Assembly: GCA_030652575.1 (NCBI GenBank)
Contig: JAUSQI010000063.1
Location: forward strand, 1 to 64,000
DNA length: 64,000 nt
From: Stagnimonas sp.
GTDB lineage: Bacteria > Pseudomonadota > Gammaproteobacteria > Nevskiales > Nevskiaceae
Direction: 5' to 3'
In this document: one piece after another, positions 39,040 through 47,620 of the stretch
How the letters are laid out: each line of letters opens with the position of its first letter
How positions within the stretch are numbered: the first letter of the stretch is position 1
Position numbers and translations under genes: made by a program
The notes under the pieces: model-generated
What the model saw: only the letters and a program-made list of their open reading frames with translations
The model's database searches: none
Told to the model about the DNA's origin: nothing

Positions 39040-40374
39040 ATGGAAAGCCCCGCTGCCAAACCCGCCCTCAATGTGCTGGCCTTGCGCCGCAGCGTGGAGC
39101 CGATTGCCCCCACCACCACGGTCAGCGAGGCCGCAGACCAGATCCTGTCGGAGGGCTATGCCGAGATGCTGTGCCTGCCCATCGTCGAGGAGGGTCGCCC
39201 GGTAGGCGTGATTTCACGGCATCGCTTCAACGAGATTTTCCTCACCCGCTTCGGCCGCGAGATCTATGGCCGCAAGCCGGTGGTGCGATTCATGAACCCG
39301 ACGCCGCTGACGGTCGAATACGACCTGCCGCTCGAAAACGCCGCCGAGCTGGTGGGCGCACAACTGGCCGCACCGATCACCGAGGATTACATCATCACCC
39401 ACGAGGGCCGTTACATCGGCATGGGCGTGGTGGTCGATCTGCTCGCGGCCATGCAGAAGCGGCTGGCCTTGCAGGTGCAGCAGACCGCCGTTGCCTACCG
39501 CAAGCTCAAGTCCAGCCAGGCTGCACTGGTGCAGGCCGAGAAAATGGCCTCGCTCGGCCAGATGGTGGCCGGCGTGGCACACGAGATGAACACGCCGCTC
39601 GGCTACGTGCGCAACAACGTCGAGATGCTCGAAGGCGTATTCGCGCAAATGAACGAGGCGCTGACGCAGCATGAAGCACTCAGCCAGCTGCTGACCGACC
39701 CCAACGCCGACGAACAGATGCTGGGCAGACTGCTCTCGGTCGTCGCCGCCCTCGATTCAGACCTGCGTGGCAGCGGCATGGTGGAAGAAGCGCAATCGCT
39801 GTTCGGCGACACGCTCTACGGGATCGACCAGGTGAAAGACCTGGTGGTCAACCTGCGCAACTTCTCGCGTCTGGATGCCGCGCAGACCAGCGATGTGCAT
39901 TTGAACGACTGCATCGAACAAACGCTGACCATCGCCAACAGCGTGGTCAAGGACAGGGCCCGCATCGTCAAGCAGCTCGCCGCGCAACTGCCGGTATTCA
40001 AGGGCGGCCCTTCGCAGATCAACCAGATCATCCTCAACCTCGTCACCAATGCTGCGCAGGCGATTGGTCATGGCGATGGCGAGATCACGCTCACGACCTG
40101 GAGCGACGCGAAAAGCGTGCATCTCTCGGTGGCCGACAACGGCAAGGGCATCGCCGCCGATCATCTGCCTCGCGTGTTCGACCCTTTCTTCACCACCAAA
40201 CCGCAAGGCGAAGGCACTGGACTGGGCCTTTCGATCAGCTTCCAGATCGCACAGGCGCACGGCGGCAGCCTGGGCGTGCGCTCCGAAGTCGGGCGCGGCA
40301 CCACCTTCACGCTGAGCCTGCCGCTGACCGCCAGCAAAATCCCGGTTTCGAGTTTCGCGGAGGAAGCCGCATGA
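39040..40374 (+). CDS. CBS-domain soluble sensor histidine kinase
   Basis: A 444-residue kinase. The first ~135 residues look like a pair of CBS domains (TTVSEAADQILSEGYAEMLCLPIVEEGRPVGVISR, then TEDYIITHEGRYIGMGVVVDLL), which often bind nucleotides. A coiled linker follows, then the H-box ASLGQMVAGVAHEMNTPLGYV with phospho-His181. The ATPase has NLVTNAAQAIG, DNGKGIA, DPFFTTKPQGEGTGLGLSI. There are no transmembrane segments. The stop overlaps the next gene as ATGA. It is expected to phosphorylate the double-receiver protein, perhaps in response to an intracellular nucleotide; that signal is inferred. Confidence 0.92.
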   Translation: MESPAAKPALNVLALRRSVEPIAPTTTVSEAADQILSEGYAEMLCLPIVEEGRPVGVISRHRFNEIFLTRFGREIYGRKPVVRFMNPTPLTVEYDLPLENAAELVGAQLAAPITEDYIITHEGRYIGMGVVVDLLAAMQKRLALQVQQTAVAYRKLKSSQAALVQAEKMASLGQMVAGVAHEMNTPLGYVRNNVEMLEGVFAQMNEALTQHEALSQLLTDPNADEQMLGRLLSVVAALDSDLRGSGMVEEAQSLFGDTLYGIDQVKDLVVNLRNFSRLDAAQTSDVHLNDCIEQTLTIANSVVKDRARIVKQLAAQLPVFKGGPSQINQIILNLVTNAAQAIGHGDGEITLTTWSDAKSVHLSVADNGKGIAADHLPRVFDPFFTTKPQGEGTGLGLSISFQIAQAHGGSLGVRSEVGRGTTFTLSLPLTASKIPVSSFAEEAA

Positions 40375-41423
40375 GCACGCCGTATCCCCTGCAGGCACGA
40401 CTCGGTGCGGCGGCGCGGTTCGCCGATGCCAACAGCGGCCCCGCCATCGTCAAGCCCAAGCTGCTATTGGTCGATGACGAAGAACGCATCCTGCGCTCGC
40501 TGGCCATGCTGTTCCGCGCGCAGTACGACCTGCGTACCACCACCGATGCCCACGAGGCGCTGCGCATCGTCGAACGGGAGCAGATTCACGTCATCGTCTC
40601 CGACCAGAAGATGCCGATCATGCGCGGCGCCGACCTGCTCAGGCAGGTGAAAGAGAAAAGCCCCCACACCATGCGCCTGCTGCTCACCGGCTACTCGGAA
40701 CTCGACGCCGTGGTGGACTCGGTGAACGAGGGCGAGATCTTCCGGTTTCTCAACAAGCCCTGGGATGCGCAGGAGCTGCGCACAACCGTTTCGCAGGCGA
40801 TGGAAATTGCACAGGCGTCATTCGCAGCACCGCCGCAAATGGCCAGCACCATGCCTGAGTCGGCACCGTCGATCGCACCATCGGCCGCGCAACTGATGAC
40901 GGCCACCGGCAGCTTCGTCTCGCCGATGTCGGGCGAAATGATCCTGGTGGTGGACGACGACCCCGAGGTCGCACGGGTGATCCAGGAAGTCGCCGGCCCC
41001 AATCAACCCGTGCGCTGGGCGCGCTCCATCGACGAAGCCTTCACCATCATCGCGCAGGACAACATCGGCGTGGTGGTGGCCGAAATCGAAGTCGGCGGCG
41101 AGCGCTTCACCGGTGCGCTGAAGGTGCTCAAGCGGCAGCACCCCGAGGTGGTGAGCATGGTCATCACACCGTTCAACGATGCGGGTCTGCTGATCGGCCT
41201 CATCAACGAGGGGCAGATTTTTCGCCTCATCCCCAAGCCCATCCGCAAAGGACCGCTGGCGATGAACCTCGCCTCGGCCCTCAAGCAGCACCGCCTGTTG
41301 AAAGCCGCGCCCAAGGCCTTCACCGCGCGCTATGCCGTGCAGGCCAGCAAGTCCGCCGATGATTTGAGTATTGCCAGTCGGGTGATGGGCTTGCTGTCGC
41401 GTTTTCGCAGTCGCACGGCTTGA
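40371..41423 (+). CDS. tandem-receiver response regulator without an output domain
   Basis: A 350-residue protein with two receiver domains. The first (about 28-145) has DDE near 35-37, phospho-acceptor D78 in IVSDQKMP, and the conserved lysine in FRFLNKPWD. The second (about 190-320) begins MILVVDDDPEVARVI but has VVVAEIEVGG where the phospho-Asp should be (Glu, likely unphosphorylated or constitutive), though FRLIPKP keeps the lysine. A Pro/Ala/Ser linker joins them. No DNA-binding or enzymatic output is visible. Coupled to the CBS kinase. Confidence 0.92.
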   Translation: MSTPYPLQARLGAAARFADANSGPAIVKPKLLLVDDEERILRSLAMLFRAQYDLRTTTDAHEALRIVEREQIHVIVSDQKMPIMRGADLLRQVKEKSPHTMRLLLTGYSELDAVVDSVNEGEIFRFLNKPWDAQELRTTVSQAMEIAQASFAAPPQMASTMPESAPSIAPSAAQLMTATGSFVSPMSGEMILVVDDDPEVARVIQEVAGPNQPVRWARSIDEAFTIIAQDNIGVVVAEIEVGGERFTGALKVLKRQHPEVVSMVITPFNDAGLLIGLINEGQIFRLIPKPIRKGPLAMNLASALKQHRLLKAAPKAFTARYAVQASKSADDLSIASRVMGLLSRFRSRTA

Positions 41424-41444
41424 ATGACCTTATGCGCCGCCCAC

Positions 41445-41459
41445 AAAAAAAGCCCGGCG
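41445..41459. terminator. left arm of a split bidirectional terminator
   Basis: AAAAAAAGCCCGGCG, 21 nt after the response regulator stop, is the exact reverse complement of the arm at 46152-46166, 4.7 kb away. Alone it cannot fold. The DNA between the arms is the cassette, so termination here is probably lost or changed. Confidence 0.8.
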
Positions 41460-41463
41460 GTGC

Positions 41464-41486
41464 CTAGCCGTTGGTTAAAGGTGTTG
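41464..41486 (+). repeat. left terminal inverted repeat of the cassette
   Basis: CTAGCCGTTGGT then TAAAGGTGTTG. It matches the reverse complement of 46123-46145 at 22 of 23 positions (T versus C at position 13). Confidence 0.9.
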
Positions 41487-41608
41487 ATTTTTTTGAAGTC
41501 AGTTCCCTCTACAACTACTGCATCGTGGGCAAAGACAAGCAGACCCACGCGATGCGGCTTGGCCTTGCCAAGGGCAAGGTGAGCCTCGAAGACATCATCT
41601 ATTTTTAA
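41468..41608 (+). pseudogene. possible transposase C-terminal remnant
   Basis: An open frame after a stop at 41465-41467 reads through the inverted repeat and ends with a recognisable-looking tail (SLYNYCIVGKDKQTHAMRLG, then LAKGKVSLEDIIYF and stop). The 'N-Y-C ... AMRLGL ... EDIIYF' arrangement resembles C-termini of DDE transposases ('...PAMAAGLT...'). It has no start and no N-terminal part. Function as a gene is unlikely. The family match is from memory and tentative. Confidence 0.35.
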
Positions 41609-41705
41609 CGCATGTAGGTGCTGTGAAAGCTCAAGCAATCAGTCGGTACCTCCTACAGGTAACCAACTAGGTCAGAGTCGCAATGTGAAAGAGGGTGCCG
41701 ATGCC

Positions 41706-41721
41706 TTGAATTACAATTCAA
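41706..41721. promoter_or_regulatory. 16-bp palindrome upstream of the methyltransferase
   Basis: TTGAATTACAATTCAA is perfectly symmetric except for the central AC and lies about 280 bp before the methyltransferase start. AT-rich dyads like this are typical operator shapes. A GC-rich dyad, CTGGAGG...CCTCCAG, follows near 41727-41754. No regulator gene is in the cassette. Confidence 0.4.
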
Positions 41722-41758
41722 ATATGCTGGAGGGCGACCGCCTCTGGCCTCCAGCTCT

Positions 41759-41806
41759 GGTCAATTCTCAATCGGCAGCGATAGTCAGTTTTGAGTCGGC
41801 AGCAAC
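41759..41806 (+). repeat. tandem 24-bp repeats resembling IS21-family ends
   Basis: Two adjacent units (41759-41782 and 41783-41806), each with GTCA..TT...A.TCGGCAGC. Multiple repeats of this kind are found at the ends of IS21-family elements. No istA/istB genes are nearby, so this may be a leftover end. The remaining DNA to 41997 shows nothing clear. Confidence 0.5.
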
Positions 41807-41997
41807 ACTCGGTAGCCTGAAAACATGAAAATTGCGGCCACAGATACTTCGAGAGGTAGTTGCGAAGAGCAAGCGCCATTCTTTGCGCCTTCCCCCGTGG
41901 CTGATTTCATGGTGTCGATGTTCTGGTTTCTTCCGAAAAATCCGTACTGGGTAGATGCGACATCGGTCAGTGTGAAGCCGCAAGTAAGAGCTGCCTG

Positions 41998-44900
41998 ATG
42001 TCGGCAACGACTTACACCACTGATACTCGTCCGCTGGCACAGCGTCTCGCTGCTTATGGGTGTACGAGCGTCATTCGCCTAGACGAAAAGCTCTCTGGCC
42101 CTCTTCAGCTTGACTACCTCGACCTGTTGCCCAAGCAGAGTAACCATACGCCTGTTCTTTCAGCTGTTGCTGAGCATCAAGGCACCGCATTGCTTTATCT
42201 CGTGGATGTAAGCGGCGACGTGAAAAGCGATCCGGGTTCACTGGCTAAAGTGCGCTGCCAACTCGCCAATCGTAGCGACCCAGCGTGGCTCGGCGTAGTG
42301 CGCAGTGGCTCGTTGGAAATTTTCCCCATCGGTTTCCACGAAACTGCCGATTCGCTTCCCGTCAGAATTATTGAGGAAAACAGCGCAACGGCACCGCTGT
42401 TTTTCCAGGGCCTTGTGCATGGCACCTTTGAGGAAAACCATCGGTTGCGGGGCACCGACTACGTCTTCCAAAAAATCTTCGACCTGCTCACACGCACGAC
42501 CAATGAGTTCGTTCCGAAAGATGGTAAAGGTCGATTGGACGCACTCGAAGTTCTCTCGATGGCCGGACGTGCCTTGTTCTTCCGCTTCCTCATCGATCGG
42601 CGCATCGTGCTGGAAAACGAGCGTGGCGAAATCTGTCCAGCAGCGAGCGAACTTAAAGACGCCTTCTCCTCGGCAGAGAGAGCCGCACAAACATCAGCTT
42701 GGCTCGATGCGACCTTCAACGGTGACTTCCTCCCGCTCATCGACGAATCCATCCCCGCCGACAATCACGATGCTCGTCAGACGGCCTACCTTCGTTTCTT
42801 TAAGCGTACTGAGCATCTCGTTGGAAAACGAATTTTCACCCATCTCGATGCGATTCTCAGGGGCTGGCGTGCCTCTGGAGACTTTGTCCAAACCGAACTC
42901 GACTGGGGCGACCTTGATTTTGCGCACATTCCTGTAGGCGTGCTAAGTCAGGTGTATGAGAGCTTCTCTCATCGTGCCGACCCACTCACGGCGCGTGATA
43001 CGAGCGTCCATTACACCCCGCGCACCATCGCCAGCTTGATGGTCGAGGAAGCCTTTGCCGCCACGAAAGACAAGGCGGGTGCAAAGGTACTTGATAGCTC
43101 ATGCGGAGCGGGCATTTTTCTTGTGCTCGCGTTCCGCCGCCTCGTCCGCGAGCAATGGAATGGCGGTGAGCGCCCCAAAACCTCGGTCATCCAAGACATT
43201 CTCTACAAACAGGTCCGCGGCTTCGACATTAGCGAATCCGCGCTGCGCCTCGCTGCACTCGCGCTCTACATCACCGCTATCGAACTCAATGCCAGCCCGC
43301 GCCCCCCGCAGGCGCTCAAGTTCCCGCGCAACCTGCGCGGTGAAGTTCTATACCGTTTCGGTGGCGAGGAGGGCGATGGCAAGAAGGTGTTCCCACTTGG
43401 CAGTCTCGGCTCGGAAGTTTCACCGAAATTCAACAAAACCTTTGACATCGTTATCGGGAACCCGCCGTGGACTCGCCTTCGAGACGATAAAGATACGAAT
43501 GCAGTTAAGAATGAGGCGAAATCCGCCAGCGATGAGTTAAACAAAGAGTTCACTGCCATTGGCCAAAGAGTGCTTGCCGCACGCGGTTTAGCGGATCTTG
43601 CTAGACGATTTCAAAACCCAGACAAGAATCCTGACCTGCCATTTCTATGGCGTGCAATGGAGTGGGCGACAGATGGAGGCGTTATTGCCCTCGCCATGCC
43701 TGCCCGACTGTTTGGGCGAACATCGGGGAAAGGCTTCGAGGCTTGGCGCGCCGTGCTGCATAGCGTTGAGATTACAGGGCTTATCAACGGAGCTGACTTG
43801 AGGAAGACTGCCGTGTGGGAAGGCGTGGACATGCCGTTCTGCCTGTTCTTTGCGCGCAATTCAAAACCCGGTCCAGACCACCGCTTCCAATATGCCGCGC
43901 CCAGTTACGAACCTGACCTCAATGGAGGCGGACGCTTCCGCATTGATTACGAATCAGCCAATCCACTCAGCATTGCACGTTTGGAGAAGCAGCCGTGGCT
44001 GCTCAAGACGCTTTCGCTCGGAACTTGGCTGGATGTGGAAGTGATGGAAGGACTAACTCAAAAGTCATCTGTCACCCTCGCAGCGACATGGAAGGCATGG
44101 AACAAGAGTCGGAACAAAACCGGACAGGGTTACAACCTGTCTAGTGAGCTTGAGCAAATGGCGGCACCGTTTTTGGCGAAACTGAAAGACTTCGCTCGCT
44201 CAGAAGGTGACTTCGCAATCCAATATGACGAACTGACAACTTTCAAATCGAGGTATGGGAGGGAGACTGTTTATTGGACCAAGGGTGAAGACCTTTACCA
44301 ATCGCCGCTCGTCATCATTCCAAAGGCGCCGGGTGACGATCCATATTCACCAAAGGCCTATCTCTCCACGCAGGCGTTGGCATTCTCGCAAAGCTATTAC
44401 GGCTACTCCTGTACTGGACATCCAGACGAGCAGACGCTTGCGTCTCTAATCTTCCTTTTGGCACACAGCACTCTTTTTAGATACTTCGCCTTGATGGTCA
44501 GTGTGTCGCAGGGAGCCGACCACATGATTTTTACGAAGCAGGATTTCGATGCACTGCCATTTCCAGACCTCGACAAACTTACCTCTGCAACCAAAGCCTC
44601 TATCCGTAATCTAGCGGCGCAGCTTCAACATGACGCAAGCAAGCCGTGGCGCGAGATAAACGAGTTCATCTTTCGTCTATACGGCCTTGATGCAGACACA
44701 GTGCAGGTTGCAGAGGACACCCTCTTCGCAGCCGCCTCGTATCGCAAGGCAGGCAAGGCCGCACTCGACCGCACGACCCGCGAAACCCGCACCGTTTTCG
44801 TTCAGACGCTGCGCAACGAGCTGGAGCCGTATTTCGATGTCTGCGGCGAACACGTGGTCGTGCGCGAGGCGGAATTCCAGCCGGACACTTGGCGTGAACC

Positions 44901-45153
44901 GTGGTTCTTCCTCGCACTATCCCGTGAAGCCGCCGTTTCGGTGCCAATCAATCCCAGCCTGATGCGGAAAGCTATGGAAGCAGCCAATCAGCGGGGATGC
45001 AGCCGTATCATTGTCCACGCGCCAGGCAAGCGTGGTCTACTCATCGGCTTGCTCAACCAGCGTCGCTGGTGGACAGCCACCCGTGCCCGTCTCTGCGCTC
45101 AACACATCATCCGCGAACGACTAGGCGCATGCGGTCTCCCCGAGCACGCATGA
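41998..45153 (+). CDS. gamma-class N6-adenine DNA methyltransferase, type II/IIG-like
   Basis: A 1051-residue protein. The methyltransferase core has H338-Y-T-P (motif X region), motif I V364-L-D-S-S-C-G-A-G, and catalytic motif IV N488-P-P-W491. The 330-residue front domain has no clear nuclease motif. The long C-terminal part (about 620-1051) includes target-recognition-like segments such as SQSYYGYSCTGHPDEQTLASL and FTKQDFDALPFPDLD. It modifies adenine in a specific DNA sequence, probably as part of a restriction or defence system with the coupled next gene (ATGA overlap). Lower G+C than flanks. Target site unknown. Confidence 0.88.
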   Translation: MSATTYTTDTRPLAQRLAAYGCTSVIRLDEKLSGPLQLDYLDLLPKQSNHTPVLSAVAEHQGTALLYLVDVSGDVKSDPGSLAKVRCQLANRSDPAWLGVVRSGSLEIFPIGFHETADSLPVRIIEENSATAPLFFQGLVHGTFEENHRLRGTDYVFQKIFDLLTRTTNEFVPKDGKGRLDALEVLSMAGRALFFRFLIDRRIVLENERGEICPAASELKDAFSSAERAAQTSAWLDATFNGDFLPLIDESIPADNHDARQTAYLRFFKRTEHLVGKRIFTHLDAILRGWRASGDFVQTELDWGDLDFAHIPVGVLSQVYESFSHRADPLTARDTSVHYTPRTIASLMVEEAFAATKDKAGAKVLDSSCGAGIFLVLAFRRLVREQWNGGERPKTSVIQDILYKQVRGFDISESALRLAALALYITAIELNASPRPPQALKFPRNLRGEVLYRFGGEEGDGKKVFPLGSLGSEVSPKFNKTFDIVIGNPPWTRLRDDKDTNAVKNEAKSASDELNKEFTAIGQRVLAARGLADLARRFQNPDKNPDLPFLWRAMEWATDGGVIALAMPARLFGRTSGKGFEAWRAVLHSVEITGLINGADLRKTAVWEGVDMPFCLFFARNSKPGPDHRFQYAAPSYEPDLNGGGRFRIDYESANPLSIARLEKQPWLLKTLSLGTWLDVEVMEGLTQKSSVTLAATWKAWNKSRNKTGQGYNLSSELEQMAAPFLAKLKDFARSEGDFAIQYDELTTFKSRYGRETVYWTKGEDLYQSPLVIIPKAPGDDPYSPKAYLSTQALAFSQSYYGYSCTGHPDEQTLASLIFLLAHSTLFRYFALMVSVSQGADHMIFTKQDFDALPFPDLDKLTSATKASIRNLAAQLQHDASKPWREINEFIFRLYGLDADTVQVAEDTLFAAASYRKAGKAALDRTTRETRTVFVQTLRNELEPYFDVCGEHVVVREAEFQPDTWREPWFFLALSREAAVSVPINPSLMRKAMEAANQRGCSRIIVHAPGKRGLLIGLLNQRRWWTATRARLCAQHIIRERLGACGLPEHA

Positions 45154-45899
45154 GCCCAGCGGATACAGCGGGCTTCTTCACGCTCGGCGTTCCGCCAGAG
45201 CGTTACCATCTCCCGCATCCGCGCCTCGGTCTCCCAGTCATCCTACTTATTCGCCGCGTGCTCCTCCGCGCCTTCGAGTTGTTGCGCGAACAGAAATACA
45301 ATCTCTCTGAGGCCAGCGAAGACCAAGTCACCGCTGCGCTTCGCAGCACGATTGAGAACAATCTGCGCCAGAGCGGCGAAGTCCAGGGCTTCAACAAACG
45401 CAGATTCGAGACCGTCATTCGTCAGGGCCAGTGGGCCAATTACGATGGCACGCGTCTAACCAAGGCCCCCGACCTCTTCTTCAAACTCCGCGACGACGAA
45501 TCTGAACCGCAGCCCGTTCTTTCCGAGTTCGACGGCCTGTTCATCGAAGCTAAACCCGTTGATTCTACTCACCCTGCTGGCAGCAAATACTGCGACGATG
45601 GCCTCATCCGCTTTGTGCGCGGCGACTACGCTTGGGCAATGCAAGAAGCGATGATGCTCGCCTATTCGCGCGACGCCAGAACTATCGCTGGTCATTTAGT
45701 TTCTGCGATGAGCGAGGCGACGCGCATAGACTCACTCGATACCATCCAGCTTCCTGAAGTTTGTCTCATGCCTGCCGCCGCAGCGTGTCCCGAGGCTGAG
45801 GCTGTTCACATCAGCCTTCACCGCCGCACCTTTAGGTGGCTAGATGGCAAGGGGCCAGCAACCGATATAGCGGTGTATCACCTCTGGCACCAGTGCTAA
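45150..45899 (+). CDS. putative PD-(D/E)xK restriction endonuclease or partner
   Basis: A 249-residue protein co-translated with the methyltransferase (ATG 45150 overlaps its stop). The stretch around D128 reads FDGLFIEAKPVD, with D128 then E133-A-K135, the classic PD-(D/E)xK nuclease spacing. An upstream helical region ends NNLRQSGEVQGFNKRRFETVI. The pairing with a methyltransferase strongly suggests the cutting partner. I do not recognise the specific family, and the nuclease assignment rests on this one motif plus context. An 11-bp hairpin follows the stop. Confidence 0.65.
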   Translation: MSPADTAGFFTLGVPPERYHLPHPRLGLPVILLIRRVLLRAFELLREQKYNLSEASEDQVTAALRSTIENNLRQSGEVQGFNKRRFETVIRQGQWANYDGTRLTKAPDLFFKLRDDESEPQPVLSEFDGLFIEAKPVDSTHPAGSKYCDDGLIRFVRGDYAWAMQEAMMLAYSRDARTIAGHLVSAMSEATRIDSLDTIQLPEVCLMPAAAACPEAEAVHISLHRRTFRWLDGKGPATDIAVYHLWHQC

Positions 45900-45904
45900 G
45901 TTTG

Positions 45905-45931
45905 AGCTGGCGGCGGCGATCGCCGCCAGCT
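45905..45931. terminator. hairpin after the cassette operon
   Basis: AGCTGGCGGCG pairs with CGCCGCCAGCT around a 5-nt loop, 5 nt after the stop of the nuclease-like gene. No T-run follows, so termination is only possible. The 190 bp from here to the right inverted repeat show no gene. Confidence 0.55.
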
Positions 45932-46122
45932 GGACACATAGCCGCTGCAACAAGCCAGATCGCCACTCAAAAGCAGGGAGGCGCATCTCAGCCGCCCTAA
46001 CTGCCGAATCGGGGCTGCCTTCGTGTTGCCCGCACCTCATTTGTTCATTCAAATCTACTTTGGGGAGGCAATCGCAACGTGCAATTACTTCCCCATTCGA
46101 TCAAATAGGCACTGTCAATTTC

Positions 46123-46145
46123 CAACACCTTTGACCAACGGCTAG
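46123..46145 (-). repeat. right terminal inverted repeat of the cassette
   Basis: Reverse complement of the left repeat with one mismatch. It is followed directly by CGGCGG and the right terminator arm. Confidence 0.9.
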
Positions 46146-46151
46146 CGGCGG

Positions 46152-46166
46152 CGCCGGGCTTTTTTT
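46152..46166. terminator. right arm of the split bidirectional terminator
   Basis: CGCCGGGCTTTTTTT, 16 nt downstream of the ctpA stop (ctpA reads leftwards into it). It pairs with 41445-41459 only when the cassette is removed. Confidence 0.8.
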
Positions 46167-46182
46167 GTGTCGCGTGAGACTC

Positions 46183-47532
46183 TCAATAACCGCGTGCGAT
46201 GGTCAGGCCCTTGAGCAGATTCAGTGCTTCGTAGAGCTGGTAATCGGTTTCCGCCAGATTGCTTTCGGCCTCTTCTGATTTCTTGGTATCCGTCGCGGTT
46301 TTGCCTTCGGCCTTCACGGCTTCTTCGACCAGCTTCTTGGCTTCCGGGTTGTCGAGGCGGCCTTTCAGGTCGGCCTCTTTCTCGCGCACGGACTCGAACG
46401 GATCGGCATCGGCGCGGCTGATCTTCATCGGCTGGAAGGTGATGTCCGGCTCGATGCCCTCGGCCTGGATGCTGCGGCCGGAGGGCGTGTAGTAGCGCGC
46501 CGTGGTGATCTTGATCGCAGACTGGTTGGCGAGCGGCAGGATGGTCTGCACGCTGCCCTTGCCGAAGGTCTTGCTGCCGACGATCACCGCACGGTGGGTA
46601 TCTTGCAACGCACCGGCCACGATCTCGGCGGCGGAGGCCGAACCGCCGTTGACCAGCACGACGATCGGGCGCCCGGAAAGCTCGTCGCCCGGTGTGGCGC
46701 TGAAAATGCGGTTGGAATCGGCATCGCGGCCCTTGATGCTGACGATCTGGCCCTTTTCGATGAAGGCGTCCGACACATCCACGGCCGCATTCAGCACGCC
46801 GCCCGGGTTGTTGCGCAGGTCCAGGATCAGGCCACGCAGCTCGCCGTCCTTCTTCACTTTCTTCAGTTCATCCAGCATCAGCTTGCCGGTGGTGGTGGTG
46901 AACTGGCTGACGCGCAGATAGCCGTAGCCAGGTTCGAGCAGCTTGCTCTTGGCCGAGGCGACGTTGATGGTCTCGCGCTTGAGATCAAACACCAGCGGCT
47001 TCTCGGCATCCTTGCGCAGCACGGTGAGCTGCACCTTGCTGCCGGGGTCGCCGCGCATCTTGTCGACGGCCTCTTTCAGGCTCAGGCCGCGCACCGGGTC
47101 GGCACCGATCTTGGCGATGTAGTCACCGGCCTGGATGCCGGCCTTGAACGCCGGGGTGTCGTCGATGGGGCTGACCACGAACACGAGGCCGTCCTTCATC
47201 TGCACTTCAATGCCCAGACCACCGAACTTGCCGGTGGTGGCGGTGTTCATTTCCTTGAACTCTTCCTTGTCCAGATAGGACGAGTGCGGGTCGAGCCCGC
47301 TCAACATGCCGCGCACCGCGTTTTCGAGCAGCTTGTCGTCTTCGACCGGCTCGACGTAATCGGTCTTGACGCGATTGAGGATTTCGACGAACGCCTGCAA
47401 GTCCTTCAGCGGCAGTGTGTCGCTGGGCGTCTCCTTCACCGCGAACACACCGGTGGTCAGGGTAATACCGGCACCCACGAGGGCGCTGGCGAGCATCGCA
47501 ATAGAGACACGGACTTTGGAGGACATGGGCAT
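46183..47532 (-). CDS. ctpA: C-terminal processing peptidase (S41)
   Basis: A 449-residue periplasmic S41 protease. It has an N-terminal signal or anchor helix (VSIAMLASALVGAGITLTTG), a PDZ domain (FGGLGIEVQMKDGLVFVVSPIDDTPAFKAGIQAGDYI) and a catalytic region with the serine in GGSASAAEIVAGAL and the lysine in SKTFGKGSVQ. CtpA-type enzymes degrade cell-wall hydrolases and other envelope proteins, often with a lipoprotein adaptor. I chose ATG 47532; an in-frame GTG at 47574 is possible. It follows envC in the same direction, linking it to wall remodelling at division. Confidence 0.94.
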   Translation of the reverse strand: MPMSSKVRVSIAMLASALVGAGITLTTGVFAVKETPSDTLPLKDLQAFVEILNRVKTDYVEPVEDDKLLENAVRGMLSGLDPHSSYLDKEEFKEMNTATTGKFGGLGIEVQMKDGLVFVVSPIDDTPAFKAGIQAGDYIAKIGADPVRGLSLKEAVDKMRGDPGSKVQLTVLRKDAEKPLVFDLKRETINVASAKSKLLEPGYGYLRVSQFTTTTGKLMLDELKKVKKDGELRGLILDLRNNPGGVLNAAVDVSDAFIEKGQIVSIKGRDADSNRIFSATPGDELSGRPIVVLVNGGSASAAEIVAGALQDTHRAVIVGSKTFGKGSVQTILPLANQSAIKITTARYYTPSGRSIQAEGIEPDITFQPMKISRADADPFESVREKEADLKGRLDNPEAKKLVEEAVKAEGKTATDTKKSEEAESNLAETDYQLYEALNLLKGLTIARGY

Positions 47533-47620
47533 CGACAGAAAGGGAGGAGTGAAGCGCGGTTTTGACAATAGCACTTAGGGTTTCGTTGCGTGCCTTAACA
47601 CGTAGGCACGGTGTCGATAT

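Follow-up and report, generated by a model that had tools for sequence, protein, structure and literature searches.

A restriction-modification-like cassette in a split terminator of Stagnimonas and its kinship with terminator-preferring transposons

The question

How does a pair of predicted defence genes come to lie between the two halves of a single transcription terminator, enclosed by transposon-type ends and with no transposase beside it? The question is raised by a 4682-bp cassette, positions 41464-46145 of a 64,000-nucleotide stretch of DNA (the window) from Stagnimonas sp. (Gammaproteobacteria, Nevskiaceae; assembly GCA_030652575.1, contig JAUSQI010000063.1). An initial annotation, made from the letters alone, had suggested that a single insertion event placed an accessory system in a terminator, by means of an element recognising stem-loops, and the present analysis supports this suggestion. 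The cassette is, with high probability, a transposase-deleted, non-autonomous member of a transposon family whose insertions, staggered by 9 bp, are centred on the dyad axis of intrinsic terminators, and the observations carrying this reading are its terminal repeats, its target duplication, the empty sites in relatives, a transposase relic and the terminator preference of the family. It also appears likely, if a little less so, that the cargo-bearing transposons of this family, with their large IS1-like transposases, are widespread and for the most part unannotated, that intrinsic terminators, cut symmetrically about the axis and chosen by structure, not by sequence, serve as their general insertion address, and that they spread the resistance gene dfrG and complete anti-phage systems (Gabija, Septu, DRT type 4, Tmn, Mokosh-like, restriction-modification) across Proteobacteria, Firmicutes and phages.

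Anatomy of the insertion

The cassette, read here as a transposon relic, is bounded by 23-bp terminal inverted repeats identical at 22 of 23 positions (41464-41486 on the + strand, 46123-46145 on the - strand), in agreement with the length and identity reported earlier, and none of the dinucleotide shuffles of the window reproduces a 23-bp inverted repeat, even at up to three mismatches. Directly outside these repeats stands a 9-bp direct repeat (CGGCGGTGC on the left, CGGCGGCGC on the right; 8/9, with a single C/T transition), which is a target-site duplication of the kind normally left by a transposase that cuts with a 9-bp stagger. This one repeat covers both the CGGCGG that had been seen at the two edges and the TGC that had been left without explanation on the left.

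The arms of one terminator flank the cassette, as the initial annotation had it, starting from 41442 and reaching up to 46169. When the flanks are joined at one copy of the duplication, they read CACAAAAAAAGCCCGGC-GGC/GGT-GCCGGGCTTTTTTTGTG and fold at -27.6 kcal/mol (z=-5.9), and while the hairpin foreseen earlier is real, its dimensions are those of a 17-bp stem with a 3-nt loop instead of 16-bp arms and a 5-nt loop. The insertion is on the axis of this bidirectional terminator (stem 17, axis offset by 1 nt from the centre of the duplication) and lies, again as described before, between convergent genes, a response regulator (40371-41423, +) and ctpA (46183-47574, -). The G+C content of the cassette (54-60%) is below that of its surroundings (60-64%). 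The parts are the following.

41442..41454, no strand: left half of the terminator, CACAAAAAAAGCC, running on into the target duplication; intact in relatives (L005, L006 and L007)
41455..41463, +: target-site duplication, left copy, CGGCGGTGC; same letters as the empty site of relative G002 (L006)
41464..41486, +: left terminal inverted repeat, CTAGCCGTTGGTTAAAGGTGTTG; from the repeat search and the family ends
41487..41607, +: transposase relic, last ~35 codons, ending in LYNYCIVGKDKQTHAMRLGLAKGKVSLEDIIYF and a stop; from tblastn and profile A1 (see below)
41998..45153, +: cargo gene 1, predicted adenine-specific DNA methyltransferase of 1051 aa; from N6_Mtase/Eco57I matches and an NPPW motif
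45150..45899, +: cargo gene 2, 249 aa, probable restriction partner; from a PD-(D/E)xK signature
46123..46145, -: right terminal inverted repeat, CTAGCCGTTGGTCAAAGGTGTTG on the - strand; from the repeat search
46146..46154, +: target-site duplication, right copy, CGGCGGCGC, one transition from the left copy; from the direct repeat
46155..46169, no strand: right half of the terminator, CGGGCTTTTTTTGTG; from the hairpin fold and the intact site of relatives

Between the transposase relic and the methyltransferase gene, at 41750-41800, there is also CTCAATCGGCAGCGATAGTCAGTTTTGAGTCGGCAG, which we take to resemble the end repeats of IS21-type elements and which is perhaps a further relic. Because the transposase has been lost and the repeats and the duplication carry one difference each, the window copy is not brand new.

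Empty sites in relatives

An uninterrupted site in relatives had been anticipated, and it is found. With ctpA traced through 58 genomes of the bacterial family, an intact hairpin is seen at the 3' end of this gene in three genomes of the same genus (G002, G003, G004). In G002 the uninterrupted terminator, AAAAAAGCCCGGCGGTGCCGGGCTTTTTT, stands between the same response-regulator gene (65% identity to the one in the window) and ctpA, and its loop, GGT, is that of the left copy of the target duplication in the window. In G003 and G004 the neighbours are different and the hairpin is kept at the ctpA end (GCCCGGCAGTGCCGGGC and GCCCGGCGGCGCCGGGC, respectively). Since these relatives keep an uninterrupted terminator, the insertion is, by this comparison, the derived state in the lineage of the window. 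The G002 locus has a separate feature at L006:1190-1440, where the stretch that parts the response-regulator gene from the intact terminator contains long, interrupted inverted repeats, CCCTCTCCC...GGGAGAGGG.

The transposase relic and the transposase family

The open frame running from the left repeat to 41607 is the C-terminus of a transposase, some 35 codons long. By tblastn it matches the C-terminus of ~600-aa "hypothetical proteins" encoded by plasmids, including those of Pseudomonas aeruginosa and Azospirillum (for the P. aeruginosa plasmid protein, 63% identity to residues 567-610, E=5e-7). Profile A1, of 584 positions, built from six family transposases and without the window, recovers the relic from the window's genome at E=4.2e-10 with its final 34 positions (550-583 of 584), as the sole match in that genome at E<=0.001. 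Most likely, judging from what is left of the frame, the element formerly encoded a transposase, and a deletion between the left end and the last ~35 codons removed it. The earlier statement that the cassette has no transposase of its own is correct for its present state, but not for its probable history, as the end of a deleted gene remains. As to the mobility of the window copy, it is predicted only, as something that could in principle occur.

The full-length relatives are proteins of ~580-650 aa, or about 800 aa in one subgroup, mostly annotated as "hypothetical" and found on plasmids and in other genomes; they possess a zinc ribbon, with a weak match of the N-terminal zinc-ribbon/helix-turn-helix (HTH) part to the IS1 transposase model. 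The ends might also have been taken as IS4-like, and PF01609 transposases do occur in the genome, but this assignment was dropped in favour of the IS1-like relic. Members of the ~800-aa subgroup (L145, L146, L148, L207-L213) apparently contain an extra inserted domain, and several have PEP-CTERM protein genes as cargo. A second relic consisting of a transposase C-terminus only is present in another genome of the window's bacterial family (G051:C10:4158-4310; L132, L164), with no ends or duplication recognisable in the region, and no ends could be resolved for a ~500-aa Vibrio-type group of more distant transposases.

Ends and members of the family

In the closest relatives of the window element the ends match (CAAGCCGTTCGCTTAAGGTGTTG versus CTAGCCGTTGGTYAAAGGTGTTG) and the duplications are of 9 bp, and over the family the ends measure ~23-27 bp and the duplications 8-10 bp, mostly 9 bp. 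One example is a P. aeruginosa element of 2010 bp (L075:2220-4229), whose perfect ends, CAAGCCGTTCGCTTAAGGTGTTGA, are recognisably akin to CTAGCCGTTGGTTAAAGGTGTTGA of the window, whose duplication is of 9 bp (CCTGTATCG), and whose site is a perfect 12-bp terminator hairpin; searched against E. coli genomes, this element has no nucleotide match. Another example is a 10.1-kb Polaromonas element with CTAGCC ends and an imperfect duplication, which splits another terminator. Terminator insertion is also seen for elements in G429, G595, G740, G573 and Pontibacillus, and for one on a dfrG-carrying Staphylococcus aureus plasmid. The trimethoprim resistance gene dfrG lies within a ~3.27-kb family member with ends TAAGTAGTTCAGTTTTGGAGTACA (L097, L165-L168), present on plasmids of S. 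aureus and Enterococcus faecium and in the Staphylococcus phage phiSa2wa-st1633, its transposase annotated as "hypothetical" or "insertion element protein". Its duplications are clean 9-bp repeats at two distinct sites and shifted in the phage, and one of its sites is a perfect terminator, while two others are weaker.

Insertion targets across the family

A total of 30 insertion sites could be resolved by ends and duplications (14 in a discovery set, 16 in a test set). The ends were located by inverted and direct repeats only, never by a hairpin, with the exception of the Polaromonas end pair, read by eye from a motif scan, and of the dfrG sites, found via their shared end. A site was counted as a terminator hairpin if it had a stem of 9 or more pairs, a single mismatch being tolerated, an axis no more than 6 nt from the duplication centre, and an A or T tract; this rule was preset for the test set, for which 227 further genomes of one family yielded 20 regions, 16 of them resolved. 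In the discovery set, 10 of 14 distinct sites pass, versus 1.9% for a null of random intergenic positions, not of insertion sites of other insertion sequences (p=6e-15). In the test set, 15 of 16 pass versus 2.4% (p=7e-24), the single failure still having a short GCCTT-gtt-AAGGC stem and a T-run. Overall, 25 of 30 insertions are in terminator hairpins versus ~2% of the intergenic null, or 24 of 29 once the window, picked for its terminator, is left out of the count. Over the 25 hairpin sites the mean offset between hairpin axis and duplication centre is 0.6 nt, and at 22 of them the offset does not exceed 1 nt. The target sequences differ at every site, their common feature being the terminator form with A/T tracts. 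The family has a strong terminator preference, with insertion centred on the axis, and the earlier expectation of other cassettes in other terminators is borne out by these sites, with related ends, unlike that of the exact 23-mer recurring elsewhere; kinship with the family shows through the transposase relic and through diverged ends, not through the exact 23-mer.

Cargo of the family and of the window element

At least one further gene accompanies the transposase in all 16 test elements. Typed with PADLOC models, the defence cargo includes a complete Gabija system (L212; GajA E=5e-213, GajB E=2e-163), a complete Septu system (L209; PtuA 2e-152, PtuB 7e-63), a complete DRT type 4 system (L211; RT_IV 1e-139, 2TM_IV 4e-46) and Tmn (L200; 8e-73). 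The element on plasmid 2 of Polaromonas sp. JS666 (L139:4320-14441) encodes an AAA/Toprim protein matching Mokosh MkoC at 2e-157, along with HNH and SMI1-like genes and an annotated HepT/nucleotidyltransferase pair, and is a candidate for a compact defence island on one transposon. Other cargo comprises dfrG, PEP-CTERM proteins, a beta-lactamase-fold protein, a two-component system with an esterase, and an acyltransferase. Three copies, those of Rhizobium, Marinobacter and P. aeruginosa, are simple elements that carry no cargo.

In the window, gene 1 matches N6_Mtase/Eco57I, with an invariant NPPW motif and a type IIG-like core, and its best relatives found, full-length and on plasmids, share 30-35% identity. 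The start of gene 2 overlaps the stop of gene 1 (ATGA). Methyltransferase and gene-2 homologue follow each other in the same order at four loci, the window and three plasmids, and P107-D108...E133-x-K135 is invariant in the four gene-2 homologues, each of them paired with a methyltransferase; gene 2 is a probable restriction partner with a PD-(D/E)xK nuclease signature. Given this pairing and this pattern, the two genes are best read as a type II-like restriction-modification pair, its activity being predicted from sequence. No relatives of the two cargo proteins were found in viral contigs.

A proposed mechanism and its rivals

In the scheme we favour, the transposase would recognise symmetric DNA of the form A-tract, GC-stem, loop, GC-stem, T-tract, possibly in the form of an extruded cruciform or of a bent palindrome, and would cut it, and join the transposon ends, in a staggered fashion, 4-5 nt to either side of the axis. 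The terminator would be halved with no gene broken, and transcription running on from the response-regulator gene may contribute to the expression of the two cargo genes, whose products would act as a type II-like restriction-modification system. Once in place, the element would have undergone a deletion that brought the ~35 C-terminal transposase codons up against the left terminal repeat, and a related transposase may still be able to move the resulting cassette in trans. In a variant of this scheme, to which we give only a minor share of probability, the transposase is guided to the hairpin, one conceivable guide being RNA polymerase that pauses or terminates where genes end. In favour of guidance, every hairpin target is terminator-like, with A/T tracts, and not an arbitrary palindrome; against it, insertion is centred almost exactly on the axis, which is more in keeping with a transposase that recognises the symmetric DNA itself than with a broad process.

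Several points weigh against the reading of the cassette as a once autonomous member of a terminator-seeking IS1-like family with a restriction-modification cargo. Five of the 30 insertions (Marinobacter, Rhizobium, two dfrG sites and one G771 site) are without a clear hairpin. The IS1 model gives a best score of 35.9 bits versus a curated cut-off of 100, and with the N-terminal part only. No intact cognate transposase is present in the window's assembly, which is 95% complete. The exact 23-bp end of the window was not found elsewhere in the genome and plasmid searches, chance matches aside: the exact search gave one such match, inside a Nitrospira gene, a search at three mismatches gave two singletons, no more than reversed-pattern controls, and a relaxed 18-mer search gave fewer matches than its control. 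Nucleotide searches of the cassette and of its non-coding ends against plasmids gave nothing. As to gene 2, no family profile or fold match and no solved relative was found, and confidence in its predicted structure is low (predicted local distance difference test, pLDDT, 39), its putative nuclease activity being read from a sequence motif.

The restriction of the exact ends to this locus, together with the low target specificity generally known for most insertion sequences (PMC6382973), would suit an ordinary low-specificity transposon or insertion sequence derivative that hit a terminator once by coincidence, but with 24 of 29 other family insertions in terminators and the cut centred on the hairpin axis, we regard this as very improbable. 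Still closer to negligible is homologous recombination or an assembly chimera, with the repeats as parts of one large imperfect palindrome: the genome is fragmented into 177 contigs, suggestive of a draft or metagenome assembly, but the 9-bp duplication exactly abuts the 23-bp repeats, the empty sites are clean and the same anatomy recurs family-wide. A more serious contender, though an improbable one, is a mobile insertion cassette that never possessed its own transposase, in which two defence genes were captured between foreign ends and all movement was in trans, as for MIC231, which is moved by IS231A. Such cassettes are established (PMC3913671), and no intact transposase is found in this one or in the assembly, but the in-frame transposase C-terminus just inside the left end is most readily accounted for as what a deletion left of an autonomous element of the family, and in such elements the transposase usually adjoins one end.

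Significance

As many genes in most bacterial genomes end in an intrinsic terminator, a transposase reading terminator shape would have a safe, abundant and sequence-independent landing site. Such elements would allow single defence systems to pass from genome to genome without an island, a prophage or a Tn7-type element, and genes of no recognised function beside a family transposase, between split terminator arms, could be searched for new cargo. The mobility of dfrG elements with a "hypothetical" transposase would be explained as well. A question raised is that of hairpin or cruciform recognition by the transposase versus guidance by terminating polymerase.

Comparison with known systems

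Mobile insertion cassettes (MIC231, mic-qnrD, mic-qnrS2) contain passenger genes within transposon-type inverted repeats, lack a transposase gene and are flanked by a target duplication (PMC3913671). The window cassette is like them in its 22/23 inverted repeats, homologous to the ends of complete elements, in its 9-bp duplication (8/9), and in having no transposase gene but a relic of ~35 codons; it differs in its IS1-like-family ends, the transposase relic as such, the two-gene restriction-modification cargo and the target on a terminator axis. In structure it fits the description of a mobile insertion cassette, with putative mobilisation in trans.

The family resembles IS1 and its single-ORF (open reading frame) variants in the partial zinc-ribbon/HTH match, in ends of ~23-27 bp and in mostly 9-bp duplications. 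IS1 transposases are of ~230 aa, whereas those of the window family are of ~580-850 aa and score below the curated cut-off, the elements regularly bear cargo, and they target terminators. As the curated IS1 cut-off was failed, the parent family is not filed under IS1. An IS1-family element for comparison is ISAba3, with 24-bp ends and 8-bp duplications (PMC6382973). A literature search gave no description of terminator-axis insertion by such elements, which, with few subscription journals covered, is weak evidence of novelty.

With type II and IIG restriction-modification systems the window pair shares an adenine methyltransferase core with NPPW and a predicted PD-(D/E)xK partner, but it is without a close relative, the best plasmid homologues being at 30-35%.

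Other elements also use palindromic or gene-end targets. IS1397, ISKpn1 and others insert into repetitive extragenic palindromic (REP) stem-loops by means of IS3-type transposases, recognising one repeated sequence, and while a palindromic extragenic target is common to them and the window family, the targets of the latter vary from site to site and share the terminator form only. Tn7 recognises the glmS sequence through TnsD and uses a single site, attTn7. It is likewise cargo-bearing and avoids damage by inserting at a gene end near a terminator, but in the window family one transposase family is combined with many unrelated terminators.

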